The notes under the pieces: model-generated
Seen by the model: the letters and a program-made list of their open reading frames with translations, nothing else
What the model was told of the DNA's origin: nothing
The model's database searches: none
Program-made: the position numbers and the translations under genes
Assembly: GCA_900318375.1 (NCBI GenBank)
Contig: ONKG01000018.1
Coordinates: 1 to 60,622 of the forward strand
DNA from: an uncultured Lachnospiraceae bacterium
GTDB taxonomy: Bacteria > Bacillota > Clostridia > Lachnospirales > Lachnospiraceae
Direction: 5' to 3'
Length of the DNA stretch: 60,622 nucleotides
In this document: positions 22,069 to 52,896 of the stretch, one piece after another
Layout: each line of letters opens with the position of its first letter
Position numbering within the stretch: the first letter of the stretch is position 1

Positions 22069-22081
22069 GGGATGCTTCTCT

Positions 22082-22882: not shown

Positions 22883-22897
22883 ACCAGCTGTGCATTA

Positions 22898-23101: not shown

Positions 23102-23169
23102 CCTCTGCCTCCTCTCCTTCTGTGAGTTTCTCTTTACGTTCACTTATAGGCAAATAGTATCTTTATAAG

Positions 23170-23370
23170 TTACTCTTTAGCAAAAAAAATTGATACAGGG
23201 TCCTCGATATGGAGCATATCAATCATAATCTGAATTTCATCACTGCCAAACACTCCATTTTTCATCTTTTCCTAGAATGTTTTTGGCGCTATTCCGATTC
23301 TTTTGGCTACATCCATCTGAGAATACCCATTCTCAACAATTTTTCCGCGTAATTTATCTGTCTTAATCAA
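23170..23370 (-). pseudogene. DUF739-like HTH gene interrupted by an in-frame amber codon
   Basis: A near-perfect AGGAGGT lies seven bases before a TTG start at 23370. The frame reads MIKTDKLRGKIVENGYSQMD, then VAKRIGIAPKTF, a TAG at 23272-23274, and continues EKMKNGVFGSDEIQIMID to a natural TAA at 23170. DUF739 proteins are about 65-residue Cro-like regulators with exactly this layout, so the TAG replaces an internal codon, probably Tyr in relatives. Expression signals are intact. Unless the amber is suppressed, only a 32-residue peptide is made. Confidence 0.75.
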
Positions 23371-23388
23371 GTTATTCACCTCCTTTCT

Positions 23389-23477
23389 GTAACTTGGCAA
23401 GTTACTTGTATATTAACATGATTTTGTAACTTGTCAAGATATTTTTGGTTGTATTTGTAACTTTTTTGTGCTACTAT
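23389..23477. promoter_or_regulatory. Divergent prophage control region with three GTAACTTG-type operators
   Basis: The perfect palindrome GTAACTTGGCAAGTTAC lies at 23389-23405, a near copy GTAACTTGTCAAGATAT at 23426-23442, and a half-site GTAACTTTTTTGTGCTAC at 23457-23474. A plus-strand promoter, TTGTAT and TACTAT 17 bases apart (23449-23477), overlaps the third site. The arrangement matches a lambda-like switch between the repressor gene (plus) and the Cro/DUF739 genes (minus). Confidence 0.75.
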
Positions 23478-23508
23478 TCGTTTACATAGTAGAGAGGAGG
23501 TAGAAGTC

Positions 23509-24132
23509 ATGACAAAAGGTGATAGAATTAAGCATCTTAGAGAAAAAATGGGTCTTAGCCAAGTATCACTTGCTGATAAGATTAATGTTTCAAAGCAGAC
23601 ATTATATAAATACGAAAATGACATTATTACCAATATCCCTTCCGATAAAGTGGAATTAATAGCAGAGGTAACTGGATCCTCACCTGCTTACATCATGGGC
23701 TGGGAAGACTCTTCCATCCCCTCCTACTCCAACGTCCACCCGATCGGCACCCAGAGCCTCCCCGTCCTCGGCTCCGTCGCCTGCGGAGAACCTATATTTA
23801 TGGCTGAAGAAAAGGAATTCTATGTAGACTCCACGACCAACGTACACGCCGACTTCGTCCTGATCGCAAAGGGCGACTCCATGACAGGAGCCCGGATCAA
23901 CGATGGAGACATTGTATTCATCCGACAGCAACCGGAAGTGGAGAATGGAGAGATTGCCGTAGTAGCAATCGACGATGAGGCGACCTTGAAGAGATTCTAT
24001 AAGTATTCGGATGACCTGATTGTCCTGCGGGCAGAGAATCCGGATTATAAAGATATGGTATACACTCCGGAAGACCATAAGGATGTCCGCGTGCTGGGAA
24101 AGGCCGTGGCGTTCCAGAGTGATGTGAGGTGA
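23509..24132 (+). CDS. CI/LexA-like prophage repressor (XRE HTH plus S24 peptidase)
   Basis: 207 residues. Residues 5-60 are an XRE helix-turn-helix (LSQVSLADKINVSKQTLYKYEN). Residues 90-205 form an S24 self-cleaving domain: the scissile Ala-Cys-Gly region is SVACGEP, the nucleophile is in GDSMTGARI, and the lysine in EATLKRFY. DNA damage through RecA should trigger self-cleavage and derepress the element. AGGAGG lies eight bases before the ATG. It presumably binds the GTAACTTG operators just upstream. It is the only intact regulator of the element, so the remaining phage genes may still be under lysogenic control. Confidence 0.92.
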   Translation: MTKGDRIKHLREKMGLSQVSLADKINVSKQTLYKYENDIITNIPSDKVELIAEVTGSSPAYIMGWEDSSIPSYSNVHPIGTQSLPVLGSVACGEPIFMAEEKEFYVDSTTNVHADFVLIAKGDSMTGARINDGDIVFIRQQPEVENGEIAVVAIDDEATLKRFYKYSDDLIVLRAENPDYKDMVYTPEDHKDVRVLGKAVAFQSDVR

Positions 24133-24228
24133 AAGGGAGCATCCAAAAATAGTTAAAATATGCATATTTGCATTTTTGTGCAGGTTGTCAATAGAAAAGG
24201 TATCCACAATTTGATATAGTATAAGCAT

Positions 24229-24360
24229 AGAAACGTCCTTAGAACAGGGACGTAAATCAAACGGTTCAATTGATGATTCTCCCCGTAGAGCGCGGGGAGC
24301 CAAATCAAAAGAATGCTCGATTGATGATTCCCCTATGCTGAGCATGGGGGAATTTTTTTT
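24229..24360 (+). ncRNA. Probable type III antitoxin RNA (tandem pseudoknot-type repeats) with its terminator
   Basis: Two repeat units of 48-51 bases each contain AAATCAAA, about ten variable bases, then ATTGATGATTC. They alternate with hairpins (ACGTCC/GGGACGT, CTCCCC/GGGGAG). ATCAA in the first motif can pair with TTGAT in the second, as in the H-type pseudoknots of ToxI/CptI RNAs. The array ends in CCCCTATGCTGAGCATGGGG plus eight T, a terminator placed directly before the toxin ribosome site. This repeat-terminator-toxin order is the hallmark of type III systems. A TATAGT at 24215 could be the -10 box. Confidence 0.75.
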
Positions 24361-24371
24361 TGGAGGAATAT

Positions 24372-24788
24372 ATGCGCATAATCATTCTGAGTCAGACATT
24401 CTATGCTCGGTATCCGCGAACTGCATTTCCAGAGATACTGGATAAAGACAATCGGCCATACTTTTATTTAACGGTAAAGATAGAGAATCATTCTTTTGCG
24501 ATACCTCTGCGACATCATATTGCGCACCCTTATGCGTTTATGACTATTGGAGATGCTGGTCTTGATTTCACGAAGGCTGTTATCATAGATGATCCATCTG
24601 ATATATCTTCAACAACTGCATGGATCGATACAAATGAGTGGAAGATTTTGAAAAGAAATGAAAACAAAATTTTCTATGAATTTAGAAAATACGTGAGGCA
24701 ATTCAAGCGGGCTTTGGCGAATCCTGTAAATCCCAGAAACCGGCGCATTCTACAATATTCGTCTCTGCAGTATTTTAACCTGGATTAA
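24372..24788 (+). CDS. Type III toxin-antitoxin system toxin, endoribonuclease (CptN/TenpN-like)
   Basis: 138 residues beginning MRIIILSQTFYARYP, with NRPYFYLTVKIENHSFAIPLRHHI, GLDFTKAVIIDD and a C-terminal LQYSSLQYFNLD. This pattern (FAIPxRxxIxH, GLDxxKAVVI) belongs to small toxins related to ToxN/AbiQ. These cut RNA, including their own repeat antitoxin, and are held inactive in an RNA-protein ring. GGAGG lies four to five bases before ATG 24372, immediately after the antitoxin terminator, so toxin mRNA comes from read-through. The exact subfamily is from memory and less certain. Such loci commonly cause abortive infection. Confidence 0.75.
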   Translation: MRIIILSQTFYARYPRTAFPEILDKDNRPYFYLTVKIENHSFAIPLRHHIAHPYAFMTIGDAGLDFTKAVIIDDPSDISSTTAWIDTNEWKILKRNENKIFYEFRKYVRQFKRALANPVNPRNRRILQYSSLQYFNLD

Positions 24789-24826
24789 AAAAACCGCCCG
24801 GCCTGCTATGACAAGTCGAGCGGCTG
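24787..24826 (-). terminator. Hairpin after the toxin gene, minus-strand terminator form
   Basis: CCGCCCGGCCTG and CAAGTCGAGCGG pair better as minus-strand RNA (G-U pairs replace C-A mismatches), followed there by TTTTTTT. A near copy lies after the Abi gene at 26471. It would stop leftward transcription into the toxin gene. Confidence 0.6.
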
Positions 24827-24923
24827 ATACTATAGCATTGCAGTCACTCTCTCCTGACAGATAAGCGACAGGATTCTCTCTGTTGGTGGCAGTTCGATTG
24901 GAAATATAGAAAAGGAGATTATT

Positions 24924-25361
24924 ATGAAAAACGCAAAAGAAGATCCAAACTGTGTTGGAAGGATAATACGTATATTGAGTAAAAAATCCGTGATTATTTC
25001 CGCCACATCGAATGACGTCAAAGTAGGTGATATTTTATCTGTATACCAAATATCTGACGAAATTTTCGATTTAGACGGGAAATCACTGGGGCCCATGATC
25101 TTCGACAAAGATAGATTAGTAGTAAAACAAACGACCGCACATTATTCGTTATGTGAGAAAAAGGATTTTATTACCCAAAGAAACAAAGCATTTTGGGGCG
25201 TATCCAGAGCGATATCAGCTTTAGCTACATCCCCTCTTCTCGAAGGGTATGAAGAGGAAGAAAATCCTCTCTATGTTGACGAGAATGACATACAGCCACT
25301 CGAAATAGAACTAGATTCAGTTATCCATTTGGGTGATCCAGTAAGGGTGTTGCCCAATTGA
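24924..25361 (+). CDS. Unknown protein with a FlgT-C-like beta domain, partner of the Abi gene
   Basis: 145 residues, AAAGGAG seven bases before the ATG. The segment CVGRIIRILSKKSVIISAT, then VKVGDILSVYQISDEIFDLDGKSLG, resembles the small OB-like beta domain found at the C-terminus of FlgT and in many uncharacterised proteins. The second half (DFITQRNKAFWGVSRAIS onward) is acidic and ends VRVLPN. No enzyme motif was seen. It lies directly before the Abi_2 gene, with the same strand and composition, so the two are likely co-expressed. The role is unknown; a sensor or regulator for Abi is an inference from position only. Confidence 0.55.
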   Translation: MKNAKEDPNCVGRIIRILSKKSVIISATSNDVKVGDILSVYQISDEIFDLDGKSLGPMIFDKDRLVVKQTTAHYSLCEKKDFITQRNKAFWGVSRAISALATSPLLEGYEEEENPLYVDENDIQPLEIELDSVIHLGDPVRVLPN

Positions 25362-25465
25362 CAACCTTAATTTGCAATGGTAAGATTGACTCAATTGAGA
25401 GGCTACCGCACAAGGAGGCCAAGAAGAGAGCTCTTCTTACCACGTGTAAGGAGGGCTCTTTCTTT

Positions 25466-26470
25466 ATGGCAGCAACATTTGACAAACCTTTTCTGGATTA
25501 TGAAGATATGATAAATCTGATGATATCCAGAGGCATAATCGTATTTAATCGCTCTTTTGCCAAAGAAGCGTTAAGCAGCTTATCCTACTATACACTTGTC
25601 AATGGTTATAAAGACACTTTTCTTTCGGTAGACGGAACAGATCATTTTATCGATGGGACTACTTTTGAGGAACTGTATAGCTTATATCAGATTGACAGTT
25701 CCATCAACTCTATCCTGCTTAAATATATTCTCAGGATAGAGCACTCTCTCAAGTCCAGAGTTTCTTATACTGTTGCTGAATCATTTGGCGTATATACCGA
25801 TTTAAATGATACGACGAATAAAAATAAAGCTGATTATCTGTTTCGTGACAACTATTCAAATTCAACGCATAAAAGGAATAATACACTTTTATCAATAAAA
25901 CAAAGAGCAACTAGTTCTGATGCATCAGACAGCGTTAAATACTACATAAAAAAACACAATCATGTTCCTCCATGGATCTTAACAACAACCTTGAGTTTTG
26001 GAAATTGTATTTATTGGTATAGGATATTAAAACCAAAGCAAAAAGATTACGTTACAAATGAATTTATCCATGGACCAATGAACATTACAGATAAAAAAGT
26101 ATTCCTGAACAATTGTTTCGATCTTCTGAGGTTTTTTAGGAACCGCATAGCTCATGGCCATAAGGTCTTTGACTTGACATGGAGCGGTTCTCTTCCTGTA
26201 TCACAGTATTTAGCACTTTCTTCTCCACTGGTTACACCTAATGACATTGCGGCAAATACATATTCAACAAATGGGCTGTTCGCAGTCGTTTCAGTATTGC
26301 TGATTATTCTTGACACATACGGAAAGAGGCAACTGTCAGTCGAATTACACTCAGCCATTGAACCATACAACGAGCGTAATATAAAAATAGCAGGAAAAAA
26401 TATTTTTGATATCTTCCATCTTCCAGATGATTTCTTTGACAGAATTTTTAACTATCTGAAGGCAATATAA
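25466..26470 (+). CDS. Abortive infection protein of the Abi_2 (AbiD/AbiF) family
   Basis: 334 residues beginning with the family opening FDKPFLDYEDMINLMISRGI, then LSSLSYYTLVNGYKDTF and RIEHSLKSRVSY. Near residue 230 is FFRNRIAHGH, an RxxxxH-type motif like that of HEPN ribonucleases, which fits an RNA-cleaving suicide mechanism. ATG 25466 lies after GTAAGGAGGG and matches the family start. The frame is also open back to TTG 25358, overlapping the previous stop as TTGA; that 36-codon leader contains a second AAGGAGG and an AAGAAGAG inverted repeat and may be regulatory. This gene should protect the cell population by stopping phage-infected cells. Confidence 0.82.
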   Translation: MAATFDKPFLDYEDMINLMISRGIIVFNRSFAKEALSSLSYYTLVNGYKDTFLSVDGTDHFIDGTTFEELYSLYQIDSSINSILLKYILRIEHSLKSRVSYTVAESFGVYTDLNDTTNKNKADYLFRDNYSNSTHKRNNTLLSIKQRATSSDASDSVKYYIKKHNHVPPWILTTTLSFGNCIYWYRILKPKQKDYVTNEFIHGPMNITDKKVFLNNCFDLLRFFRNRIAHGHKVFDLTWSGSLPVSQYLALSSPLVTPNDIAANTYSTNGLFAVVSVLLIILDTYGKRQLSVELHSAIEPYNERNIKIAGKNIFDIFHLPDDFFDRIFNYLKAI

Positions 26471-26505
26471 AAAACCGCCCGACCTGTTGGCGCAGGTCAA
26501 GCGGC
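26471..26505 (-). terminator. Hairpin after the Abi gene, minus-strand terminator form
   Basis: CCGCCCGACCTG and CAGGTCAAGCGG, with the same sequence and A-run as at 24787. On the minus strand it is CCGCTTGACCTG, loop, CAGGTCGGGCGG and six T. Together the two copies bracket the two-gene Abi cassette. Confidence 0.65.
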
Positions 26506-26518
26506 AAATATAGATACC

Positions 26519-26594
26519 AGCCCTTTAGGAGCCAGATCCACGGCGATATGATTCTACTCCTTCAGGGCTTAATTTCCTATACCCATGAAAGGAG
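26519..26594 (+). promoter_or_regulatory. Leader with alternative pairing around the integrase ribosome site
   Basis: AGCCCTTTAGGAG (26519-26531) pairs with CTCCTTCAGGGCT (26557-26569). CTCCTT in the second arm can instead pair with the integrase ribosome site AAGGAG (26589-26594). The two pairings exclude each other, which could switch integrase translation. Confidence 0.4.
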
Positions 26595-26601
26595 TATTTT
26601 T

Positions 26602-27696
26602 ATGCCTACAGCGAAGAAACTTCCCAGCGGCTCCTGGAGATGCAGGGTTTTCGCCGGGTATGACATTGACGGAAAGCGGAAATACGAGTCTTTTATCGTC
26701 AAGGATCCATCCAAGCGCGGCAAAAAGGAATGCGAGCGTCTGGCATCGGAATGGTCTGTAAATCATCAGGACCGTGATGTGATGGCGCTGACAGTACAGG
26801 AAATGGTCCGCAGCTATATCGATCTCAAGGAAAAGGTTCTCTCTCCATCTACGATCAAGAACTATGAGCAGATCCTTCGAACCAGCATGGATGATATCCG
26901 CATGTACACTGCGGGAGACCTGACGCCGCCGATCGTGCAGCGCTGGATCAACATTCTTGCCGTCCGGAACTCTCCGAAGTATGTCCGGAATGCAAACGGA
27001 TTATTTCAGTCCGCCCTGAAGTTCTCCGGCCTCAACGGTGTCCGTGTGACATTGCCCGCTCCTCAGGACTTCCAACCGCATGTCCCCTGCGATGAGGAAG
27101 TAAAGAAGCTGATCAACTATATCAATGATACCACTCACGAAAACACCAAACGTGACATGCGCCCACGGTATGAACTCAAGGTCGCAGTTATGCTGGCTGC
27201 CTTCGGCTCCCTCAGGCGGGGCGAGATCTGTGCCCTTCGGACAGAAGATTTCGACCGCAGACATTTGACCGTCAGGATCAACAAGGATGTCGTGAAGGAT
27301 AAGGACGGCTACTGGGTAACCAAGCCGACGCCTAAGACTTCCACGTCGAATCGGACCGTGGAGCTCCCTGCGTTCGTGATAGACGCTATCGACTTCTCGA
27401 GACCCGGGACGATCATCAAGGGGACTCCGGATCAGATCTCAAACCGCTTCAGGCGCGCTGTCCGCTTCTCCGGCTCGGAGTTCCATTTCCGCTTCCATGA
27501 CCTCCGGCACTACTATGTGTCGATCGCTCACGCCCTGGGGATCCCTGACGCCTACATCATGGAGATGGGAGGATGGCGGACGGATCGGACTATGAAGCGC
27601 GTCTACCGGTCTACGCTGGCTGACAGAAAGAGGGAGGAACAGAAAAAGCTGAATACCCACTTTGCCGGCCTCGCAGCATCAGAAAACGCCGGTTAA
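26602..27696 (+). CDS. Tyrosine recombinase / phage integrase
   Basis: 364 residues from ATG 26602 (AAAGGAG seven bases upstream). An N-terminal arm-binding domain (PSGSWRCRVFAGYDIDGKRKYESF) is followed by a SAM-like core-binding domain (VQEMVRSYIDLKEKVLSPSTIKNYEQIL). The catalytic domain shows Arg in GSLRRGEICALR, Lys in TPKTSTSNRT, FHDLRHYYVSIAHALG with His-x-x-Arg, and the tyrosine nucleophile in KRVYRSTL. It should integrate and excise the element at the adjacent tRNA-Ala gene, whose 3' end faces it. It appears intact, so the relic might still be excised if both att sites survive. Confidence 0.92.
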   Translation: MPTAKKLPSGSWRCRVFAGYDIDGKRKYESFIVKDPSKRGKKECERLASEWSVNHQDRDVMALTVQEMVRSYIDLKEKVLSPSTIKNYEQILRTSMDDIRMYTAGDLTPPIVQRWINILAVRNSPKYVRNANGLFQSALKFSGLNGVRVTLPAPQDFQPHVPCDEEVKKLINYINDTTHENTKRDMRPRYELKVAVMLAAFGSLRRGEICALRTEDFDRRHLTVRINKDVVKDKDGYWVTKPTPKTSTSNRTVELPAFVIDAIDFSRPGTIIKGTPDQISNRFRRAVRFSGSEFHFRFHDLRHYYVSIAHALGIPDAYIMEMGGWRTDRTMKRVYRSTLADRKREEQKKLNTHFAGLAASENAG

Positions 27697-27809
27697 CTGG
27701 TTTTATGAATATATTCAGATATTTCGTGACATATTCATGACATACAGTTTCCAAAATTATGCATTTTTCTATGCTTATCTGCATTACCCGATGCAGTCAT
27801 AAAAACGCT

Positions 27810-27863
27810 GAGACCCGCATAAATACTGGACTTTTTAGTTTTCCCAGTGTTTAAGCGGGTCTC
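27810..27863 (-). terminator. Long two-part hairpin between integrase and tRNA-Ala
   Basis: GAGACCCGC pairs with GCGGGTCTC, and inside it ACTGG with CCAGT. On the minus strand it is followed after four bases by TTTTT, so it can end the tRNA transcript. It also marks the end of the integrase unit and probably the element boundary. Confidence 0.65.
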
Positions 27864-27871
27864 TCAAAAAG

Positions 27872-27944
27872 TGGAGACGACGGGATTCGAACCCGCGACC
27901 TCAGCGTTGCGAACGCTGCGCTCTCCCAACTGAGCTACGTCCCC
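27872..27944 (-). tRNA. tRNA-Ala (anticodon CGC)
   Basis: A 73-base cloverleaf on the minus strand: acceptor GGGGACG/CGTCTCC with the G3-U70 pair that marks alanine tRNAs, D stem GCTC/GAGC, anticodon stem CAGCG/CGCTG with loop TTCGCAA, T stem GCGGG/CCCGT with TTCGAAT, discriminator A. CCA is not encoded. Its 3' end faces the integrase, the usual arrangement for an integration site. Confidence 0.95.
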
Positions 27945-43437: not shown

Positions 43438-43453
43438 GAAATGCAGAAAAAAG

Positions 43454-43490
43454 AAAAGGCACACCTTTTCCCCCGGTGTGCCTTTTCGTA
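43454..43490. terminator. Terminator after the STAS gene
   Basis: AAAAGGCACACC, short loop, GGTGTGCCTTTT. A-run and T-run make it work on both strands. It would end the long minus-strand unit that begins near 53.5 kb. Confidence 0.88.
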
Positions 43491-43520: not shown

Positions 43521-43820
43521 TTATTCAATGTCCAGGATATCAGAAAAACCTGTTACCTCGAAGATCTCCATAATGTCATCATTGACATTGCAGATTACCA
43601 TGTGGCCCTGCTTGTTCATGATCTTCTGAGCGGACAGAAGGACACGAAGGCCGGCGGAGGAAATATATTCCAGCTTTGAAAAATCGAAACTGAGTTCAGA
43701 GACGCCATCGATATCGTCCTTGAGTTCTTTTTCAAGCTGCGGAGCTGTAGTTGTGTCAAGTCTGCCCTCAAGCGCGATTGCGAAGTCTGTACCGTTCTTG
43801 TTTTTCTGAATGTTCAGCAT
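43521..43820 (-). CDS. STAS-domain anti-sigma factor antagonist (SpoIIAA/RsbV-like)
   Basis: 99 residues of one STAS domain: LEGRLDTTTAPQLEKEL, LSFDFSKLEYISSAGLRVLLSAQKIM. The serine in the SSAGLR loop is the usual phosphorylation site. When unphosphorylated such proteins bind an RsbW-type kinase and free a sigma factor or other target. It is encoded 167 bases after the SpoIIE/RsbW fusion, which carries both the kinase and phosphatase domains needed to control it. AAAGGAG precedes the ATG. Confidence 0.92.
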   Translation of the reverse strand: MLNIQKNKNGTDFAIALEGRLDTTTAPQLEKELKDDIDGVSELSFDFSKLEYISSAGLRVLLSAQKIMNKQGHMVICNVNDDIMEIFEVTGFSDILDIE

Positions 43821-43913
43821 TTTTTGATCTCCTTTTGAATATTAATGATTTGCGCTCAGAAGTACAGTCTGTGTCTGTTGCTTAACCGAACGCCATATGT
43901 TATCCAGTGCAGC

Positions 43914-43945
43914 ATTACATCATTGTTAAATTACATCATTGTTAA
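43914..43945. repeat. Exact 16-bp tandem duplication upstream of the STAS gene
   Basis: ATTACATCATTGTTAA occurs twice in a row. It lies about 100 bases upstream of the STAS start, where a promoter or operator would be expected. Confidence 0.8.
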
Positions 43946-43987
43946 TAGTTACAGGAAAGAATAAGCGCTGTTCCTGAAACGGACGGC

Positions 43988-46396
43988 TTAAATCTTTTTT
44001 AGAATACTCAGAATGTTTTTCCCATCCCTGTGCTCATACCGGACATCATCCATGGTCTTCTTGACAACAAAGACACCGAGGCCTCCGATTGGACGATCCT
44101 CTGCCGCAAGTGTGATATCGGGGTCCTTCTGCTCCAATGGATTGTACGGAACGCCCTGGTCTATAAAGGTGATCCGCACTGCACGAGGATCCCGCTCTTC
44201 CTCCAGACGGACAGTCGCCTTGCCGATACCCTTGCAATAAGCATACCTCGCGATATTGCTGAAAAGCTCATCGATGGCGACATCAATCTGAATCTGTGCT
44301 TTCATCGGGCACTCCAGTTCCTCCAGAATGCCGTCAATGAAGTCTGTAACCTTATGGAGGTTTTCCAGGGTTGCTTCCAGGGTCAACTCTTTCACAGATT
44401 TCTCCTCCGCACCGGCGCCGCCGGTACTCCTGCTGCCGCCGGCCATGTCTGCAATGCAGTCATTTCCGGCACTGTTTTCGGTATCAGTGAAATGACCAGC
44501 CAGCTGATTTTCTGAGGAATCCGCTGCAGGTTCATTTGAAGGATTAATAGATAATCCGGTTGCAATATCTTTTAAAGGATCTGTAACTTGTGTCCGGGGA
44601 TCAGTTAAAGAATCAGCTGAAGATTCCGCTGAAGATTCAGCTGAAGAATCCACTGAAGATTCAGTTAAAGAATCAGCTGAGGATTCATTCAAGGGATCCG
44701 CAGCTTCTGTTACAGGATCGGTTAAAGGATCAATGATAGAGCCGGATGCAGGACCGGCTGACCTATCCTGCAGGTCTGCACTGCCGCCGTTATATTCCAG
44801 ACAGAGCATTGTCATATCATCGAACTGCTCCGCCTCTGCGGCAAAACGGTCCACTGCCAGGCGTACGCTGCAGATGATCTCCTTGGCGGAAGCCGCAGGA
44901 TTTTCATTGAGGGCTTCCAGCATACGCTGTGTCCCGAACTGCCGGTCATTGCTGTCAGCAGCTTCCGGAACGCCGTCCGTGTACACAAAGAGTCTTGATC
45001 CGGGCTCGATCTGAAGCTCGTACTCTTTATATTTTACACCATCCATGCCGCCTATGACAAAGCTGTGCGGATCTTTTATCAATTCAAAACAACCGCCCGG
45101 CTTTGTGACCGCCGGATATTCATGTCCTGCATTGGCCGCGGTCAGCTTCCCGGTGGAAATCTCCAGAATCCCGAGCCAGACTGTCACAAACATTTCCTCG
45201 CGGTTGTGCGCACAGATGATCTCATTGACGGATTCCAGCACCTGGGCCGGCCCTTTTCCGTTCATGACAGTGTTTTCCACAATAACTTTGGAAATCGTCA
45301 TAAACAGGGCACCGGGGATGCCTTTTCCGGAAACATCGGCGATGACCAGACAGAGGTGGTCATTGTCGATCAGGAAGAAATCGTAAAAATCACCGCCCAC
45401 TTCCTTTGCGGGATCCATCAGCGCATAGAGATCGAACTCTTTCCTCTCCGGGAAAGGAGGAAACACATCCGGAAGCATGGCTGCCTGAATACGGGCTGCA
45501 AGGGAGAGCTCTGTTCGGATCTTCTCCTCTTCCGCGGTAATACGGGTCAGATGATCGACATAGCCGGTAATCTGATCCTCCATCTCGTCAATGGCCCTTG
45601 CCAGTTCTCCGATCTCGTCCCGGTTGCGGATCACCTGGGTCAGCTTCTTTTCCGCCTTGACGTTTTCCGTGGAAAAGCGGGACGCCTCTTTGATAATGAT
45701 CTTGAGCGGATTCAGAAGCACCCTGCTCTGGTATAATCCCAGATTGATGGCAGCCAGAATCATGCTCAAAAACATGACAAAGAAAATCTTGATCAGGTAG
45801 GATTTTCTGGTACTCGCAACCCTGTCCATCTGACGCTGGACACAGAGAATTCCTTTCGTTTTCCCATCCGCTCCTATGAGAGGGATCATGGCTGTGATAT
45901 GGGGATCTGTCTCAATATATCCCTTATCCCTGATCACCAGTTCCCTGTCCGACTTTTCCTCATACAATGCTCTGTATTTGCGGCGGTACTCCTCATTGGT
46001 CGTCTCCCTGACATAGCCACAGCTGTAGACAGGATAAGTATTATCTGAATTGACTCCGACCAGGACGAAAGTGATATGCGCATAGTCTGTCAGATCCGGC
46101 TGGATCACATATATAAATGCGGCCCCCTGGGAATCACATAATTTGCTGAGCATGCTCTGCGCATTGTCGAACTCTTCTCCTGTTCCCCCGTTGTTGAGAT
46201 AGATCTGCAGGTGGTCGGGTTTTACAGCCAGAGAGGCCGCATCCGCAGTATAAAAGGCGCCTTCGGCGTACTGTTCCATGAGCGCGCGCGAATACTCCAC
46301 ATTTCCGATTATGCCCAGGATTGCAGAAAAAACGATCAGCAGTGCCACTATTCCCGCTATGCTTTTAAAAGCGATGCTGTTAGACAGTTTTTTCAT
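43988..46396 (-). CDS. SpoIIE-type PP2C phosphatase fused to an RsbW-like kinase, membrane sensor
   Basis: 802 residues: membrane helix at 13-33, an external sensor (34-200, with a Cache-like end GILCVQRQMDRVASTR), second helix (205-225), HAMP (226-280), coiled coil, PP2C domain (GGDFYDFFLID, IADVSGKGIPGALFM, DDMTMLCLEY), a disordered linker of DPLTDP and SSADSLTES repeats (540-660), then a HATPase with the N-box IDVAIDELFSNIARYAY, DQGVPYNP and GGLGVFVVKK. The PP2C part should dephosphorylate the STAS protein next door and the HATPase part phosphorylate it. Carrying both opposing activities in one chain is unusual. The ribosome site is weak. Confidence 0.9.
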   Translation of the reverse strand: MKKLSNSIAFKSIAGIVALLIVFSAILGIIGNVEYSRALMEQYAEGAFYTADAASLAVKPDHLQIYLNNGGTGEEFDNAQSMLSKLCDSQGAAFIYVIQPDLTDYAHITFVLVGVNSDNTYPVYSCGYVRETTNEEYRRKYRALYEEKSDRELVIRDKGYIETDPHITAMIPLIGADGKTKGILCVQRQMDRVASTRKSYLIKIFFVMFLSMILAAINLGLYQSRVLLNPLKIIIKEASRFSTENVKAEKKLTQVIRNRDEIGELARAIDEMEDQITGYVDHLTRITAEEEKIRTELSLAARIQAAMLPDVFPPFPERKEFDLYALMDPAKEVGGDFYDFFLIDNDHLCLVIADVSGKGIPGALFMTISKVIVENTVMNGKGPAQVLESVNEIICAHNREEMFVTVWLGILEISTGKLTAANAGHEYPAVTKPGGCFELIKDPHSFVIGGMDGVKYKEYELQIEPGSRLFVYTDGVPEAADSNDRQFGTQRMLEALNENPAASAKEIICSVRLAVDRFAAEAEQFDDMTMLCLEYNGGSADLQDRSAGPASGSIIDPLTDPVTEAADPLNESSADSLTESSVDSSAESSAESSADSLTDPRTQVTDPLKDIATGLSINPSNEPAADSSENQLAGHFTDTENSAGNDCIADMAGGSRSTGGAGAEEKSVKELTLEATLENLHKVTDFIDGILEELECPMKAQIQIDVAIDELFSNIARYAYCKGIGKATVRLEEERDPRAVRITFIDQGVPYNPLEQKDPDITLAAEDRPIGGLGVFVVKKTMDDVRYEHRDGKNILSILKKI

Positions 46397-46515
46397 TATT
46401 TACCGAGAAAAAGCATTCTATGAAAAAAATAATGTACACACCATACAGCATAACACATTAATGAAAATACGGCAAACAGCAGGCGCTCTGTTACCGGCTT
46501 TTCCCCGCTGTTTGT

Positions 46516-48807
46516 TCATGTATCCAGTCTCTGTCTCTCGACCAGCCGGGCAAAAGAGCCGCCCTTTTCGATCAGTTCCTCATAGGTCCCTTCTTCGGCG
46601 ATCTTTCCGTCTTCGATCAGAAGGATCCGGTCGCAATTACGGATCGTGCTGAGGCGGTGGGCAATGACAATGCGGGTGCAGCGCAGGCGGTCCAGGGCCT
46701 CGGAAACCTGTTTCTGGGTCTTGTTGTCCAGGGCGCTGGTGGCCTCATCCAGGATCAGAATATCCGGTTTGGGAGCAACTGCGCGCGCGATCATCAGACG
46801 CTGCTTCTGACCTCCCGAAATACCTCCGGTACCCTCGGAAATAATCGTGTTCATTCCCATGGGCATCTCGCGGATATCCTGTGCAATGCCTGCGATTTCG
46901 GCCGCTTCCCAGGCCTCTTTCAAGGTCAGGTGAGGCGCGGAGATTGTGATATTGGCAAAGATATCGCCCTGGAAAAGCTGGCCGTTCTGGGTAACGACAC
47001 CCATCTTTTTGCGCATCGAGCGGGGATCGATCCTGTTCAGATCATGTCCGTCATAATAGATGGCGCCCTTCTCCGGCTTCTCGAAGCCCAGAAGGAGACG
47101 AACGAGGGTCGACTTGCCGCAGCCGGTCCTTCCCACGATGGCGACGTATTCTCCCGCGCGGATCTTCAGAGAGAGATCTTCAAAGACCAGGGGGGTGTCT
47201 TTCTCATAGCGGAAAGCAATGTGGTTCAGTTCAATGCTTCCCCGGATCGATGTGATCACTTCCTTTTCGGAAGTGATCTCCGGCTCTGTCTTCAGGATCG
47301 GTTCCGCCATTTCAAGGACAGGCGGGATCGACGCCACGGAAATGGCAATGCCCGCCAGTGAGGAGAAGGCACCCATTACTCTGCCGTAGGCCGCACTGAA
47401 GCCGAAGTAGCCGGAAGGGCCAACGCCGGAACGCACAGCCAGATAATACAGAACGATGTTGCCGATCAGCGAGATCGCCGTCATGATAACAGAGTTGATC
47501 TTCAGAAACATGGGAGGATTATATTCCATCTCCATATTTCTGGCAAAAAGCCTGCCCCAGCGGGCGAACGCGCGTTTTTCGGAACCGGAGAGACGAATCT
47601 TGCGGATTCCGCTGATCATGGCATAACTCATGCCTGCTTCCTGTGCCCCGAGCTTCATCTTTTCTCTGGAGATACGGATCTGCATCAGAGAGGTCACAAA
47701 GCTTGCGCACACAGTGACCAGGATGATCACAATAGACGGCCATACCAACAGCGGTGTGAAATTAAAAATCTGTGTGATGTACAAAAGAGAAAGCAGGGAG
47801 CTCAGACCTATGGAAAAAATATTGGTCAGAAGTATGTTGCACAGGGAACTGACAGCTGTCGTACGGCTGGACAGTTCGCCTGAGGAGTAGCGTCTGAAAA
47901 AGGACAGGGGCAGCGACAGCAGCCGCATCATGACGGATGATTCCACCGCAAGAGAGGCTTTCGTGGAAATAAGGCTCATGACCAGTGACCGGACCACTGA
48001 CAGAAGCTGTGAGGCAAAGGCAGCCGACAGCAGAAAGACCGCAGTTCCCATAAGGAGAGAGACACTCCTGCTCTCGAGCACGGGACCGGTGATCATCTGA
48101 TAGACCTTGGGCTCGATCATACCGGTCAGTGTCACCGCAAGTGTCGCGAGGAAGATCTGGATAACATCGCTCGAGGAAATGCAGTTCTTCATGTAGAGAA
48201 GAAGATCCGGGATACCAAGGCTCTTCATCGGCAGCGGACGATAGAAACACAATGCGTCCGGAGCAATGCGGGCTGCATTTGCACGGGTGATCCTGGTCAT
48301 TTTTCCCGTCCCGGGGTCACGAAAACGATACCCGCTGACTCTGCCGGGAAGAAGAGCGACCATGGTTCCTCCCTGGCCGGATTGCTCCTCCCTGCTTTCC
48401 TGAGAGCCGCTGTCGTCTTCCGCGGGCTCTTTCCCATCTCCTGCAGAGTCCGGGGCACTCCCGGCCCGGTCTTCATTTTTCTCCATGTAGACACCCAGCA
48501 TGGGGCCGAATGCGTCCTTGTACCAGCCCTTCTCCAAAGTCACGTCTCTCGTCATCAGTCCAAGAGGGCGCAGCACGTAGTCCAGCTGTTCATTTACGTC
48601 ATGAATCGTATCCGGAACCTCGACAGGCTTATAGTGATAGTATTTCAGCACATCGTCCAGCGCTTCCTTAGCGACCAGCTGCTCGTCCTCCAAACGCGAG
48701 CCCATGTAGTTTCCCAGCACGGCTCCCGCGATCTGCAGATAGGAATCCTCCAGCAGCTCCTGATCGCTCTTCATCCGCTCTCTGATCTGTTCATCAAACC
48801 ATCCCAT
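46516..48807 (-). CDS. NHLM-type bacteriocin export ABC transporter (permease-ATPase, no peptidase)
   Basis: 763 residues. An N-terminal domain (1-170) without the C39 peptidase is followed by a type-1 exporter membrane domain with six helices (210-500) and an ATPase with Walker A GRTGCGKST, Q-loop VTQNGQ, signature ISGGQKQRL and Walker B ILILDEATSALD. The N-terminal region ends with a Ser/Glu/Gly-rich stretch around 110-150. This matches the second ABC subunit of NHLM export systems, which works with a C39 exporter and a HlyD-like protein. AGGTAACA precedes the ATG. It lies 94 bases after the C39 gene; the two probably form a heterodimer. Confidence 0.88.
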   Translation of the reverse strand: MGWFDEQIRERMKSDQELLEDSYLQIAGAVLGNYMGSRLEDEQLVAKEALDDVLKYYHYKPVEVPDTIHDVNEQLDYVLRPLGLMTRDVTLEKGWYKDAFGPMLGVYMEKNEDRAGSAPDSAGDGKEPAEDDSGSQESREEQSGQGGTMVALLPGRVSGYRFRDPGTGKMTRITRANAARIAPDALCFYRPLPMKSLGIPDLLLYMKNCISSSDVIQIFLATLAVTLTGMIEPKVYQMITGPVLESRSVSLLMGTAVFLLSAAFASQLLSVVRSLVMSLISTKASLAVESSVMMRLLSLPLSFFRRYSSGELSSRTTAVSSLCNILLTNIFSIGLSSLLSLLYITQIFNFTPLLVWPSIVIILVTVCASFVTSLMQIRISREKMKLGAQEAGMSYAMISGIRKIRLSGSEKRAFARWGRLFARNMEMEYNPPMFLKINSVIMTAISLIGNIVLYYLAVRSGVGPSGYFGFSAAYGRVMGAFSSLAGIAISVASIPPVLEMAEPILKTEPEITSEKEVITSIRGSIELNHIAFRYEKDTPLVFEDLSLKIRAGEYVAIVGRTGCGKSTLVRLLLGFEKPEKGAIYYDGHDLNRIDPRSMRKKMGVVTQNGQLFQGDIFANITISAPHLTLKEAWEAAEIAGIAQDIREMPMGMNTIISEGTGGISGGQKQRLMIARAVAPKPDILILDEATSALDNKTQKQVSEALDRLRCTRIVIAHRLSTIRNCDRILLIEDGKIAEEGTYEELIEKGGSFARLVERQRLDT

Positions 48808-48837
48808 CTTGTTACCTCTTCCGATCCTCGATCCTCT

Positions 48838-48925
48838 GCTGACCGGCCGGCTCTGTCATTTACTCGTGACCGGCTCTGTCATTCACTCGTGACCGGCTCT
48901 GTCATTCACTCGTGACCAGCTCCGT
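48838..48925. repeat. 23-bp tandem repeat spanning the stop of the C39-ABC gene
   Basis: GGTCACGAGTGAATGACAGAGCC on the minus strand begins inside the last codons of the gene and is repeated to give about three to four copies, each with TGA. It fills the gap to the next ABC gene. Confidence 0.85.
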
Positions 48926-51100
48926 GTATGCTCCGCCGGCCGCATAAAGCTCCTCATGTTTACCGCGCTCCACGACCACGCCCTTTTCCAGAACGATGAT
49001 CTCGTCGCAGTCGCGGATCGTAGAAAGGCGGTGCGCGATCACGATACAGGTGATGCCTCTGTCACAGATCGCCTTGACCACATCATACTCCGTTTTGGCA
49101 TCGAGGGCACTCGTAGCCTCATCCAGAATGATGATGGAGGGATCCTGCGCCAGTACACGGGCGATCTCAAGGCGCTGGCGCTGGCCGCCGGAAAGGTCCT
49201 TGCCGTTTTCCGTGATTTTTCCCTGATATCCTCCGGGCCTGCGGAGAATATCATCGTGAATCTGCGCGTCTCTTGCGGCCATGATCACTTCGAAGTCCGC
49301 GATACTCTCATCCCACATGCGGATATTTGCGGAGATTGTATCTTCAAAAAGAATGATCTCCTGGTCGACGACAGCCACAGATCCCGTAAATACACTTCTG
49401 TGGATCTCGGAGATAGGCTTCCCGTCGAAAAGGATCTCTCCGCTCCAGGGCTTATAAAGGCCGGAGATCAGATTGCTGAGAGTCGATTTGCCGCAGCCGC
49501 TGGGGCCGACAATAGCCACCCGGTTTCCGGGCTTTAGAGACATGGAAAAGTCTTTTATGACCGGCTCTCCGAGAGGTGAATATCCGAAAGTGACATTTTT
49601 CAGCTCGACATTCCCGCTCAGTTTGGAGTAATCTTCCTCCTCGCTCACAGGCTTTTCATTTATAAACGGATCATCCGGATACTGCATGACGTCCTCGACA
49701 CGCTCCATGTCCGTGCGCATCTCCTGGATCGTCTGTCCGGCTCCGATCAGTGTGGAAACAGGTCCCATGAAGGAAGTCAGAAATCCCTGAAAAACCGTGA
49801 TCATACCGATGGTGAAGTTCCCGTCCATTGCCAGAAGGATTCCGGTAAAAAGGACCATATAGTTTGCGCAGACGCCGATCATGGCCGGGATTAAGCCCAG
49901 GGAAGCATTCATGCGCGCATATTTCATCTCCTGGGCATTCACCGAAGCCTGATATCCGGACCATCTGCGGAAAAAGCCGTTTTCAGCGCCGGAGGACTTG
50001 ATCGTCTCGGCCATGCTGATTCCCGCCAGAGTCGTAGAAGCCAGCTTCCCGGCATCACGCATCTGCACACGGGTCATGTTTACACGCTTTTCCGACATAT
50101 ACCGCGCGATCACGAGATTCATCAGCACAGAGACCAGACCGATCATGGTCAGTAAGGGGCTGTAGCGCAGCATCAGGACCAGATAGACTACCGCCATGAC
50201 AGTATTGAGGGCCAGAGGGGCCACGGTCTGCACCAGCGTGCCTGCTATAGAGGCATTTGTGTTCTTGCGCTGCAGGATATCTCCCGCCATGCGCTGTGAA
50301 AAGAATTCCATGGGAAGCCTGAGCACCTTCCATATATAGGAGGTACTTCCCACAACAGACATTTTTCCGTTGATCTTGAGGGAATAGACGACCTGTGCCC
50401 ACTGCACCACAATCTGAGCGGCACACAGAGCCGCCATCAGTGCTATGAAAGGATTGAGCCAGTCCGGATTTCTCCCGGTCAGCAGGCGGTCCATAAAGAT
50501 TCTGGACATGACAGGATTGATGACCCCGAACAGACTTGCAATGATCGAAGTGAGCATGACAAAAACGACGGCTGCTCCTGCTCCGGACAGCCGCCTGGCC
50601 GCAAAATCGATTGTACTCTTCTTTTTTCCGGAAGGGACAAAATTCTCACCCGGTTGGATGAGCAGACAGATTCCGGTGAATGCCTTGTCAAACTCATCCA
50701 TGGACACACGGACCACGCCCCGCGCGGGGTCGTTGATGACGGCATTTTTTCCCTTGAAACCATTGAGGACCACAAAGTGGTTGAAGTTCCAGTGGATGAT
50801 ACATGGAAATACTGCGTTCTCTTTGAGAGCGCTGATTTCCATACGATATCCGTCCGCCTCGAACCCGTAATTGCGGGCGGCGAGCAGTACATTTCTGGCA
50901 TTGGAACCGTCGCGGGAGACGCCGCAGTCACGGCGGACCTCCTCCAGAGGCACCCATTTTTCATAATATGCCATCACCATTGCCAGACACGCGGCGCCGC
51001 ATTCCAGCGCCTCCATCTGCATGACCACCGGAACTTTGGCAACCTTTCCGGTGACAGGCTGTCTGATCTTTCTGCTTGTCTTATCCATCAGTGAAGTCAT
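48902..51100 (-). CDS. C39 peptidase-containing ABC exporter (double-glycine leader processing)
   Basis: 732 residues. Residues 20-150 are a C39 peptidase: catalytic cysteine in MEALECGAACLAMVMAYYE, histidine in HWNFNHFVVLNGF, aspartate in VINDPARG. It cuts precursor leaders after Gly-Gly in the cytosol. The six-helix membrane domain (165-440) and the ATPase (480-732: GPSGCGKST, VVDQEIILFED, LSGGQRQRLEIAR, IIILDEATSALD) drive export. The two GG-leader genes upstream are the obvious substrates. The ATG at 51100 is almost touching GAGGA; ATG 51088 (MDKTSRK) is an equally likely start. The last codons are part of a tandem array. Confidence 0.92.
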   Translation of the reverse strand: MTSLMDKTSRKIRQPVTGKVAKVPVVMQMEALECGAACLAMVMAYYEKWVPLEEVRRDCGVSRDGSNARNVLLAARNYGFEADGYRMEISALKENAVFPCIIHWNFNHFVVLNGFKGKNAVINDPARGVVRVSMDEFDKAFTGICLLIQPGENFVPSGKKKSTIDFAARRLSGAGAAVVFVMLTSIIASLFGVINPVMSRIFMDRLLTGRNPDWLNPFIALMAALCAAQIVVQWAQVVYSLKINGKMSVVGSTSYIWKVLRLPMEFFSQRMAGDILQRKNTNASIAGTLVQTVAPLALNTVMAVVYLVLMLRYSPLLTMIGLVSVLMNLVIARYMSEKRVNMTRVQMRDAGKLASTTLAGISMAETIKSSGAENGFFRRWSGYQASVNAQEMKYARMNASLGLIPAMIGVCANYMVLFTGILLAMDGNFTIGMITVFQGFLTSFMGPVSTLIGAGQTIQEMRTDMERVEDVMQYPDDPFINEKPVSEEEDYSKLSGNVELKNVTFGYSPLGEPVIKDFSMSLKPGNRVAIVGPSGCGKSTLSNLISGLYKPWSGEILFDGKPISEIHRSVFTGSVAVVDQEIILFEDTISANIRMWDESIADFEVIMAARDAQIHDDILRRPGGYQGKITENGKDLSGGQRQRLEIARVLAQDPSIIILDEATSALDAKTEYDVVKAICDRGITCIVIAHRLSTIRDCDEIIVLEKGVVVERGKHEELYAAGGAYTELVTSE

Positions 51101-51274
51101 TCCTCACAACTATACCGTAATAGTTCCAACAGAGCTCTTGTTCATGGCACACCGGCCGGAGACATTACCGGTCTGCGCTATGCTTGCCGGTCTGTACTGC
51201 CGGTCTGTACCGTTCTATACCGTTCTGTACCGGCTGCAAACGATCACCCTCCCGCAGGACCTGATGAGCCCCGG

Positions 51275-51688
51275 TCAGTTTAACAAAAAGGTGATCGGAG
51301 TGATCCTTTCCGTCACGATCTTCGCATCATATGTACCGTCCTGCAGGGAAACCTCTGCCGTCACGACAGTCTCTCCGCTGTCCAGCCGGCGGACATTTTC
51401 GATCGTGATATCCTCCCCGGCAACGCGCAGCGTCATGCCCTCTTTCACCGTATACTCCGTATCCTTGTCCAGAACGATACTGGCTTCTCCCGCCTTCACA
51501 TCTGCCGCGACAGGATAAGATGTCTCCACTGTTCCGATCGAAGAGCAGATGATCAGACCTGCCAGCATGACAATGATCGCTGTCAGAACCATCCAGATCC
51601 CCGGGCTGGTGACCCGCATATAATCCTGAAGCTGTTCCGGCGAAGAAATCCGATCAATACTTTGTTTTCTGAACAGTTGCTTATCCAT
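51275..51688 (-). CDS. Short NHLM/HlyD-like secretion accessory protein
   Basis: 137 residues from ATG 51688, five bases after GGAGG. The opening MDKQLFRKQSIDRISSPEQL is the typical start of NHLM HlyD-type adaptors, followed by one membrane helix (MVLTAIIVMLAGLIICSS) and a beta-rich external part (VAADVKAGEASIVL, EGMTLRVAGEDI). Full HlyD adaptors are 250 residues or longer and contain a coiled coil; here it is missing, so this protein is a minimal form. It is encoded directly before the C39 exporter and should help cargo release at the outer face. Confidence 0.75.
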   Translation of the reverse strand: MDKQLFRKQSIDRISSPEQLQDYMRVTSPGIWMVLTAIIVMLAGLIICSSIGTVETSYPVAADVKAGEASIVLDKDTEYTVKEGMTLRVAGEDITIENVRRLDSGETVVTAEVSLQDGTYDAKIVTERITPITFLLN

Positions 51689-51899
51689 CATCTCCTCCAT
51701 TGCCGGGATGACGGCTGTCGTCGCCGTATCCGGATAAACCTGATTAACCGGCCGACAGCATAAGCCCCTTCCCGCTATACGGATCAGGCGGCGGATTCTG
51801 CTGACGGCCGGCGGCTGTCATTCCATTACTGAGGGTCACGCCCTGTCCGGGCTGTGACCGGGTAACATCGCGAATTCCCGCTCCGGGCCTTCGCCCTTT

Positions 51900-51932
51900 T
51901 ACGCAGGTTTTCGCACATTTTAAACCTGCCCG
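51900..51932 (-). terminator. Hairpin between cargo gene 1 and the adaptor gene
   Basis: GCAGGTTT pairs with AAACCTGC with a short loop, about 80 bases after the cargo stop. No strong T-run follows, so it may act as an attenuator that lowers exporter expression relative to cargo, or as an mRNA 3' stabiliser. Confidence 0.45.
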
Positions 51933-52005
51933 CGAAAACATCTGTTATCCTGAGGTCAAGGCAGGTGTGCCTGCTGACGTCTTTCACGCCTCCTGCTTCA
52001 GATCA

Positions 52006-52308
52006 TCAGTAAGCTGTGCCGTGCATCTCAAATCCTTTGATCTTATTAAAATCGACCCAGCCATTCATGCCGTTAAAATACGCATAGACATATTCACCGT
52101 TGGTATTATCCGGCTGGATCTGAAAGGCCGTCCCGCTGACAAGCCTGGCCACTTCATTGTCGGCAGAGACCGAAGGGTCGGAGCGAAGAGCAAGATAGCC
52201 CTCTCCCGGATCGGACATGACCCATTTCCACTTCAGTTCCCCGGCGGTTCCGACGCCTCCCGCCACATTCATAAGATCCAGATCATTCATTTTTTCCATT
52301 TCAGCCAT
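52006..52308 (-). CDS. Double-glycine leader precursor, cargo 1 (SH3-like small protein)
   Basis: 100 residues. AAGGAAG precedes ATG 52308. The leader MAEMEKMNDLDLMNVAGG ends in the DLxxVxGG pattern cut by C39 peptidases. The mature part (82 residues) has no cysteine: LKWKWVMSDPGEGYLALRSDP, FQIQPDNTNGEYVYAYFNGMNGWVDFNKI, reminiscent of bacterial SH3 (SH3b) domains, which bind cell-wall peptides. It is far larger than ordinary bacteriocins. No modifying enzyme gene is nearby. Cargo for the downstream exporter is the most likely role; a secreted wall-binding effector is an inference. Confidence 0.75.
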   Translation of the reverse strand: MAEMEKMNDLDLMNVAGGVGTAGELKWKWVMSDPGEGYLALRSDPSVSADNEVARLVSGTAFQIQPDNTNGEYVYAYFNGMNGWVDFNKIKGFEMHGTAY

Positions 52309-52393
52309 TTTATTCTTCCTTTGATTTGACACAATTCATTATAACACCCGGGGACCGGACGTGTTTACGTTATTTCACAAAAACATGCTATTA

Positions 52394-52510
52394 TTCCAGT
52401 CTCCTTCTTGCAGTCTCTTTTGTGAGTCCTGGTTCCAGTCTCCTGACTGCAGTCTCTTTTGTGAGTCCTGGTTCCAGTCTCCTGACTGCAGTCTCTTTTG
52501 TGAGTCCTGA
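52394..52510. repeat. Three 39-bp tandem repeats between the two cargo genes
   Basis: Copies of TTCCAGTCTCCTGACTGCAG plus TCTCTTTTGTGAGTCCTGG, two of them nearly identical. They separate the cargo genes on the minus strand. An internal CAGTCTC/GAGTCC partial palindrome could form small hairpins in the RNA. Confidence 0.9.
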
Positions 52511-52566
52511 TCCCCGTCCCGGGACAGCCGGTCCACGCTGTCATTGCGGACACGGACTTACAGGTC

Positions 52567-52896
52567 TTACAGTTTTTCCTTGATATTGCCGCAGGTTTTA
52601 CATTTTCCCCTTCCGCCGGTGAAAACTATGTGCTCTGTCATCTCTCCGCAGACAGGGCACTCCGACATCGCGATGCCAAGTCCTGCCCCGCCGGCGTCTC
52701 CCGTTTCATCACCTGCAAAGCCGGGCATTCCCCCGGTCCCCTTCTTTCCCTCTATCCCGGAAAAAAAGGCATTCCCCAGTCCTCTATAAAAACTTTCAGC
52801 GTCAGTATGCAGGCCCTCTCCGGACATACCTCCGGAAACGGAAAAGAGATCGTCATCACCTATTTTCTGCATGCCCTTATTGATATCTTCTGCCAT
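52567..52896 (-). CDS. Double-glycine leader precursor, cargo 2 (Gly-rich protein with zinc ribbon)
   Basis: 109 residues. AGGAGG lies six bases before ATG 52896. The leader MAEDINKGMQKIGDDDLFSVSGG has the same DLxxVxGG ending as cargo 1. The mature part (86 residues) is glycine-rich in the middle and ends in a four-cysteine knuckle, CPVCG at 80-84 and CKTCG at 99-103, typical of a zinc ribbon. Secreted zinc ribbons behind a GG leader are unusual, because C39 exporters handle unfolded chains. The open frame extends upstream to 53037, but only this ATG has a ribosome site and leader. Confidence 0.78.
   Translation of the reverse strand: MAEDINKGMQKIGDDDLFSVSGGMSGEGLHTDAESFYRGLGNAFFSGIEGKKGTGGMPGFAGDETGDAGGAGLGIAMSECPVCGEMTEHIVFTGGRGKCKTCGNIKEKL

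Follow-up and report, generated by a model that had tools for sequence, protein, structure and literature searches.

What does a peptidase-bearing ATP-binding cassette (ABC) exporter carry when the genes beside it encode two small, folded-looking proteins, and why should a partner switch stand in the same run of genes? These questions are raised by a 60,622-nucleotide stretch of DNA, here called the window, from an uncultured Lachnospiraceae bacterium (assembly GCA_900318375.1, 82% complete; contig ONKG01000018.1). Seven genes lie on its minus strand from position 52,896 down to 43,521 and, read 5' to 3', they encode a zinc-ribbon-like cargo protein (cargo 1), an SH3-like cargo protein (cargo 2), a short HlyD, a C39-ABC protein (ABC1), a second ABC protein (ABC2), a SpoIIE-RsbW fusion and a STAS protein. 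On balance we favour the reading that this locus encodes a hub exporter of the NHLM type, serving mini-proteins that are dispersed over the genome and probably unmodified, together with a partner switch that does not act through a sigma factor and that possibly gates the exporter. The parts are as follows.

52567..52896, minus strand: cargo 1, a 109-amino-acid precursor with leader MAEDINKGMQKIGDDDLFSVSGG, a mature part of 86 amino acids and a C-terminal CPxC...CxxC zinc-ribbon-like motif.
52006..52308, minus strand: cargo 2, a 100-amino-acid precursor with leader MAEMEKMNDLDLMNVAGG and an SH3_3-like mature part of 82 amino acids.
51275..51700, minus strand: short HlyD-like protein, 141 amino acids, partial TIGR03794 match.
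48902..51100, minus strand: ABC1 (NHLM_micro_ABC1), C39 peptidase-permease-ATPase, 732 amino acids, TIGR03796 and Peptidase_C39.
46516..48807, minus strand: ABC2, the partner ABC protein, 763 amino acids, TIGR03797 near miss, predicted C39-like N-terminal domain.
43988..46396, minus strand: SpoIIE (PP2C) phosphatase with a C-terminal RsbW-type HATPase, 802 amino acids, Pfam SpoIIE and HATPase_c_2.
43521..43820, minus strand: STAS-only protein of the anti-anti-sigma type, 99 amino acids, TIGR00377, candidate phosphosite Ser55.
43446..43487, minus strand: intrinsic terminator with a 13-bp stem and a T tract, assessed by folding energy against shuffles.

A preliminary description of this DNA had claimed a one-strand gene run closed by a strong terminator, and its coordinates, its gene order and its lengths of 86 and 82 residues for the mature proteins prove right; the terminator folds at -29.4 kcal/mol compared with a shuffle mean of -14.2 (z -5.3), a value equalled by none of 200 shuffles. 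The order of cargo pair, short HlyD, ABC1 and ABC2 is kept in three further loci (L066, L067, L068). Short tandem repeats lie in or at intergenic gaps of the operon, at 52394-52509 (39 bp x 3), 48847-48922 (23 bp x 3.3) and 43914-43945 (16 bp x 2).

ABC1 passes the cut-off of the NHLM exporter model TIGR03796 (929.7 bits, cut-off 853.3), carries a Peptidase_C39 domain (E 1e-36) and is the one protein in the source genome that a profile search matches to Peptidase_C39. Its residues Cys34, His108 and Asp124 are invariant in all 20 aligned ABC1 proteins, and we take them to be the catalytic residues of the C39 domain. The HlyD-like protein has a single hydrophobic stretch, as read from its sequence, and the three-gene cluster HlyD-ABC1-ABC2 of the NHLM exporter is present. 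Judged by sequence, then, the exporter is of the known NHLM kind, with HlyD as a short variant of its third part, and is not a new exporter class. In the NHLM exporter of Haft et al. (2010; PMC2887384) a peptidase-bearing ABC protein, a peptidase-less ABC protein and HlyD stand together, and precursors may lie far from the export genes. The "new export system" of the preliminary description is thus too strong a term; what looks new is the cargo set and the neighbouring switch. The nearest named relatives of ABC1, among the matches listed, come mostly from assemblies labelled Clostridia, Ruminococcus or Lachnospiraceae, one of them from sheep omasum.

The second ABC protein had been called peptidase-less, which is correct in that it has no Cys before residue 187 and hence no catalytic one, but a C39-like domain is present in its predicted structure, at about residues 39-195. 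On this model the N-terminal part of ABC2 is a C39-like domain without the catalytic Cys, as in HlyB, and it could perhaps be a docking site; the ATPase motifs of ABC2 are intact by sequence.

Both cargo proteins of the window carry a double-glycine (GG) leader, of 23 amino acids ending SVSGG in cargo 1 and of 18 ending NVAGG in cargo 2. These leaders match the curated bacteriocin leader models (cerein-type and Bacteriocin_IIc) below cut-off only, and neither protein matches an NHLP or Nif11 leader (TIGR03793 or TIGR03798) at E 0.1. Cargo 2 scores 16.6 bits against Pfam SH3_3, below the cut-off of 27, while two relatives whose leaders are of this kind score above it, at 33.1 and 32.0 bits; an SH3_3 match at E up to 1 is found in all five aligned family members, the window's own included (best E 4.6e-7), and no Cys is conserved among the aligned SH3 cargo. 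The zinc-ribbon match of cargo 1 is likewise below the Pfam cut-off; both Cys-X2-Cys pairs are invariant in five of five aligned sequences, which share 20 invariant columns, and the cargo 1 profile finds matches in 7 of 64 genomes. The window cargo do look, from these patterns, like small folded proteins, and the claim of a leader pair with SH3-like and zinc-ribbon cargo is upheld in that sense, with the window pair itself below the family cut-offs and relatives above that of SH3_3. A single-sequence structure of mature cargo 2 was too poor to use (mean predicted local distance difference test score 50).

The pair is part of a larger set. The source genome holds 14 small-protein genes with GG leaders, 12 of them distant from the exporter (contigs C84, C119, C151, C164, C189 and C193), and all 12 have a Shine-Dalgarno match of at least 4/6. 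Six of the 14 are SH3 proteins by profile A1 or Pfam and three are zinc-ribbon-like, so that nine are SH3-like or zinc-ribbon-like; one is of a second type and four are without clear resemblance. Among the six, L283 alone passes the Pfam cut-off, as does a relative (L292), and the three zinc-ribbon-like proteins fall below theirs. The second type, with the pattern NCRYxPNG...GHKLKVDGIT and no Pfam match, may be SH3-like as well. In the same genome the SH3-cargo profile finds GG-leader SH3 proteins on C189 (three), C164 (one) and C119 (one, divergent), and it finds others in related genomes.

The occurrence of this set follows that of the exporter. Within the genus a genome was counted as exporter-bearing if ABC2 was matched in it at E 1e-150, which gives 21 genomes, among them G269, where ABC2 is broken and C39 is unmatched. 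GG-leader SH3 genes occur in 17 of these 21 and in none of 16 others; five training sequences of profile A1 come from tested genomes, without which the count is 12/16 against 0/16. That count leaves aside a match in a 965-amino-acid open reading frame (ORF) of G265 and those of G058, G081, G224 and G226, which lie outside the genus, and takes one gene of G282 from locus L261 and not from the SH3-profile rows. A leader-only profile of 16 positions (A6), trained on leaders from the source genome, its genus and G081, gave 94 small-ORF matches in 19 of the 21 exporter-bearing genomes and two matches in two of the 16 others, these 96 being what was kept of 101 matches after three in ORFs of about 500 amino acids or longer and two ending before GG were dropped. 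In other genera the leader profile matched in 11 of 27 exporter-bearing genomes and in 0 of 28 comparison genomes, the latter hand-picked for having no strong TIGR03796 match, a choice that favours contrast; two partial matches (G019, G103) were dropped. Taken as sequence patterns, these distributions make it likely, in our view, that the exporter is a hub serving dispersed cargo. SH3 repeats of the cargo kind also occur in longer ORFs that open, by eye, with a signal-peptide-like stretch (L260, L261, L272; confirmed as SH3 in L260), which fits an extracellular role.

Two further arrangements of such genes were observed. Contig C21 of G273 (L336, L307) holds an array of at least 11 small GG-leader genes, of which several look zinc-finger-like by eye and some have a Nif11 leader that passes the TIGR03798 cut-off, and in G081 many similar GG-leader SH3 genes (C13, C25, C36, C76, C90, C94; L286-L288, L301), several at contig ends, appear as if in repeated DNA.

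The partner switch is complete in its parts. The SpoIIE-RsbW fusion matches Pfam SpoIIE (9.8e-47) and HATPase_c_2 (4.1e-22), and its N-terminal third resembles a membrane sensor, with a HAMP match of 20 bits, below the cut-off of 25. The metal-binding Asp residues of SpoIIE (336/354/474/526/527) are kept in 11 of 11 homologues and the N-box Glu and Asn of the RsbW-type GHKL kinase in 10 of 10; the RsbW domain found no match at E 0.001 among solved structures by sequence. The STAS protein passes TIGR00377 (72.6 bits, cut-off 53.45), was aligned to SpoIIAA/RsbV chains, and its Ser55 is kept in all 19 homologues. The model for SigB/F/G-type sigma factors (TIGR02980), the customary output of a switch of this kind, has no match above cut-off in any of 10 genus genomes, the source genome being 82% complete. 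The output here therefore probably lies outside that sigma class and may instead be the exporter or cargo synthesis.

Whether the switch belongs with the exporter is a question of neighbourhood. The preliminary description had named a lack of co-occurrence in other genomes as grounds for refutation, and co-occurrence is what we find: of 58 NHLM loci, 21 have a gene for SpoIIE, RsbW or STAS no more than 8 kb away, and none of 20 other C39-exporter loci of the same family, picked by hand as controls, has one. Three of the 21 are weak (L105, with STAS inside a 368-amino-acid ORF; L106, with a partial STAS; L120, with STAS 4-6 kb off), and without them the count is 18/58. The 58 include several loci per genome (four from G079, for example) and contig-cut loci, 15 having less than 2 kb of sequence on one side; they also include L120 and L121, both below the TIGR03796 cut-off and the latter part of ABC1 only, and leave out L122 (590 bits) and L123-L124 (own non-NHLM ABC proteins). 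Among nine further loci, chosen from the 80 matches listed for an identity of at least 42% to ABC1 and none of them among the 58, switch genes stand at two (L165 and L170, out of L165-L171, L200 and L224).

It is quite possible, although we do not regard it as the expected case, that the SpoIIE-RsbW/STAS genes are an independent module, placed downstream by chance and controlling something else. Modules of the same kind stand alone elsewhere, in genomes with and without the exporter, and 37 of the 58 NHLM loci have no switch gene inside 8 kb, so that adjacency is not obligatory; the position of the switch relative to the exporter also varies. Against chance placement, a small STAS gene lies within 8 kb in 20 NHLM loci where roughly 0.5 would be expected (from 129 STAS places in 64 genomes, assumed to be about 2.75 Mb each, and 663 kb of flank), and in none of the controls. 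The switch label needs 10 changes on a tree built from 51 ABC1 proteins, at least nine of them forced by well-supported branches, and gene order varies among lineages as well, so that the association has repeatedly arisen or been lost. In G011 a run of RsbW, STAS, SpoIIE and HlyD reaches a contig end and another contig begins with ABC1, from which adjacency may be presumed, and L067, a close relative, keeps RsbW and STAS beside the exporter but lacks the SpoIIE part there.

Two other gene arrangements were noted at these loci. In L086 two different NHLM exporters stand in tandem, separated by RsbW and STAS, and SpoIIE lies upstream. A sigma-70-like gene family occurs on the exporter strand in 6 of the 58 NHLM loci (L089, L091, L103, L106, L108, L109), three at 60 bp or less and one at 350 bp or less, and in 0 of 20 controls; one member (L108) was tested by Pfam, and by size we presume that the family is of the extracytoplasmic function (ECF) type.

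If the adjacent GG-leader genes encoded the two peptides of a class IIb-type bacteriocin, exported by the NHLM machinery, the switch would be a chance neighbour. The two precursors do lie side by side, and their GG leaders have the weak cerein-type and Bacteriocin_IIc matches given above. We nevertheless find this improbable: the mature parts are of 82-86 residues with SH3-like and zinc-ribbon-like patterns, many paralogues are single and scattered, and the SH3-domain relatives are repeats in the longer signal-peptide-like ORFs. No small membrane ORF lies beside SH3 cargo in L282-L284; in L333 and L334, simple hydropathy does show short ORFs with a single hydrophobic segment close to cargo genes. 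No convincing immunity gene was seen in the operon, as the preliminary description had it; the gap between cargo and HlyD holds two listed ORFs only, of 65 and 53 amino acids.

Equally doubtful is that the precursors are ribosomally synthesised and post-translationally modified peptides (RiPPs), guided by their leaders to an enzyme encoded elsewhere before they are cut and exported. In the source genome the one ORF with the radical-SAM motif CxxxCxxC found near a cargo gene (L332) resembles a glycyl-radical activase. The window cargo lack an NHLP or Nif11 leader match at E 0.1, and the aligned SH3 cargo lack a conserved Cys. None of the window ORFs of at least 150 amino acids has CxxxCxxC, which bears out the statement that no RiPP-modifying enzyme is visible to the extent of that motif, other enzymes not having been searched one by one. 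Three SPASM-type places occur in the source genome (one below cut-off), none on a cargo contig, lanthipeptide and other enzymes not having been searched genome-wide. In favour of modification, NHLM exporters are tied to NHLP/Nif11 RiPP precursors (PMC2887384), and relatives of this exporter adjoin radical-SAM enzymes and Nif11-leader peptides. The clearest case is L165, where two Nif11-type precursors, one matched by TIGR03798, surround a radical-SAM/SPASM enzyme, with genes for HlyD, ABC1, ABC2 and a SpoIIE protein coming after them; the TIGR03798 leader is met in some cargo of relatives, and CxxxCxxC ORFs of 350-600 amino acids stand at 9 of 58 NHLM loci as against 1 of 20 controls. The exporter family is thus common to RiPP-like and apparently unmodified cargo, and the cargo considered here are, from their sequences, probably unmodified. 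Control of sporulation through SigF/G is rejected, no match above cut-off being found in the 10 genomes.

Returning to the hub exporter with its switch, the parts, their conserved catalytic residues, the cargo family and the co-occurrence are features of sequence, from which we infer export, cleavage, a phosphorylation cycle, gating and a lack of modification. The short cargo leaders, typically ending (D/E)LxxVxGG, would direct the proteins to a single outlet, where the C39 domain of ABC1 would cleave after GG, and ABC1, ABC2 and the short HlyD would move mature proteins of about 60-100 residues across the membrane. The membrane-borne SpoIIE phosphatase would dephosphorylate Ser55 of STAS on a membrane-sensed signal and the RsbW domain would rephosphorylate it, so that free STAS would report the state of the switch, which would in turn gate export or cargo synthesis. 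That export is gated by the partner switch is a tentative proposal on this evidence. It is a long shot that STAS, when unphosphorylated, binds the exporter itself, for example at the C39-like domain of ABC2 that lacks the catalytic Cys, and that it opens the exporter while the sensor-phosphatase is active, releasing a dozen SH3 and zinc-ribbon mini-proteins together; if true, STAS-exporter binding would place an ABC exporter under the post-translational control of a partner switch, and the output would be secreted mini-proteins that bind the wall (SH3) or metal (zinc-ribbon).

Besides the unaccompanied NHLM loci, the stand-alone modules, the locus L165 and the CxxxCxxC ORFs, several results weigh against the reading that we favour. 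ABC2 falls narrowly below the cut-off of TIGR03797 (693.1 bits, cut-off 709.4), which is the best among all families that it matched, and HlyD reaches 27.2 bits against TIGR03794 (cut-off 156.2) over profile positions 1-43 only. A profile comparison (hhalign) of the ABC2 N-terminus with a C39 alignment gave a probability of 0.2, which is no relation, so that the likeness shows in the predicted structure only, and a Foldseek search for ABC2 gave no match at E 0.001 or better. The Fisher tests of co-occurrence carry species relatedness, and some of the training sequences stem from the tested genomes. Sub-threshold TIGR02980 matches occur in all 10 genomes, reaching 143 bits against a cut-off of 234; most of them we take, by their ORF length, to be RpoD or SigH-like. 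A shared promoter motif of the cargo genes was not convincing in 65 upstream regions (68 unique cargo genes, giving 67 full-length regions, minus two near-copies) compared with 192 background regions. The best hexamer, CGTGGA, occurs in 12/65 against 4/192 (p 2e-5 before correction for 4096 words) and the best gapped word pair in 13/65 against 3/192 (p 2e-6 before correction for 61,240 pairs); these words are too weak, and a shared alternative-sigma promoter is not claimed.

Elsewhere in the window, positions 20532-27944 look like a phage remnant or small element, with a Clp protease, a phage portal, a repressor-like gene, an Abi_2 protein and a phage integrase ending beside tRNA-Ala.

Among known systems the NHLM/NHLP exporter (TIGR03794, TIGR03796, TIGR03797) shares the paired ABC proteins, the HlyD and the distant cargo genes. 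Compared with what is described of it, HlyD is here 141 amino acids long, ABC2 is slightly below cut-off, the window cargo have folded-domain patterns and no NHLP or Nif11 leader, and a switch is encoded in the run itself. In function, PteB/EbfG1-4 of Synechococcus elongatus comes closest: small proteins with a GG motif depend for their secretion on the Cys of a C39 peptidase transporter, and they enable biofilm formation and not killing; these are four co-transcribed genes, and a partner switch is not mentioned in the part of that source used here (PMC4997328). In the lah cluster of Lachnospiraceae bacterium C6A11 the C39 domain of the ABC transporter LahT removes many different GG leaders, but from nine Nif11-leader precursors within one lanthipeptide cluster (PMC6363468). 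Precedents for switches acting elsewhere are BtrU/V/W of Bordetella, which act on a secretion process, and SypE/SypA of Vibrio fischeri, where the target of SypA is given as unknown. Both have a phosphatase, an RsbW-type kinase and a STAS protein, but they belong to other phyla and to type III secretion or the genes of biofilm formation (PMC8256260); here a fused SpoIIE-RsbW stands beside an ABC exporter. Among the literature matches listed, seen by titles and abstract openings and with few subscription journals covered, neither this cargo set nor the pairing of exporter and switch is described, and in the main text of a rumen bacteriocin survey (PMC13289728) the words SH3, zinc, NHLM and SpoIIE do not occur. 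The exporter kind is known, and the dispersed cargo set and the switch beside the exporter look new.

NHLM exporters are named for bacteriocins and RiPPs. Should this genus instead export scattered, folded and unmodified mini-proteins through one of them, many of its short genes would become a predicted secretome that shares a leader, an outlet and a switch open to test. A SpoIIE/RsbW/STAS switch that stands repeatedly beside a secretion machine would also bear on the question posed by the Bordetella Btr proteins, namely what such switches target where there is no classic sigma factor.

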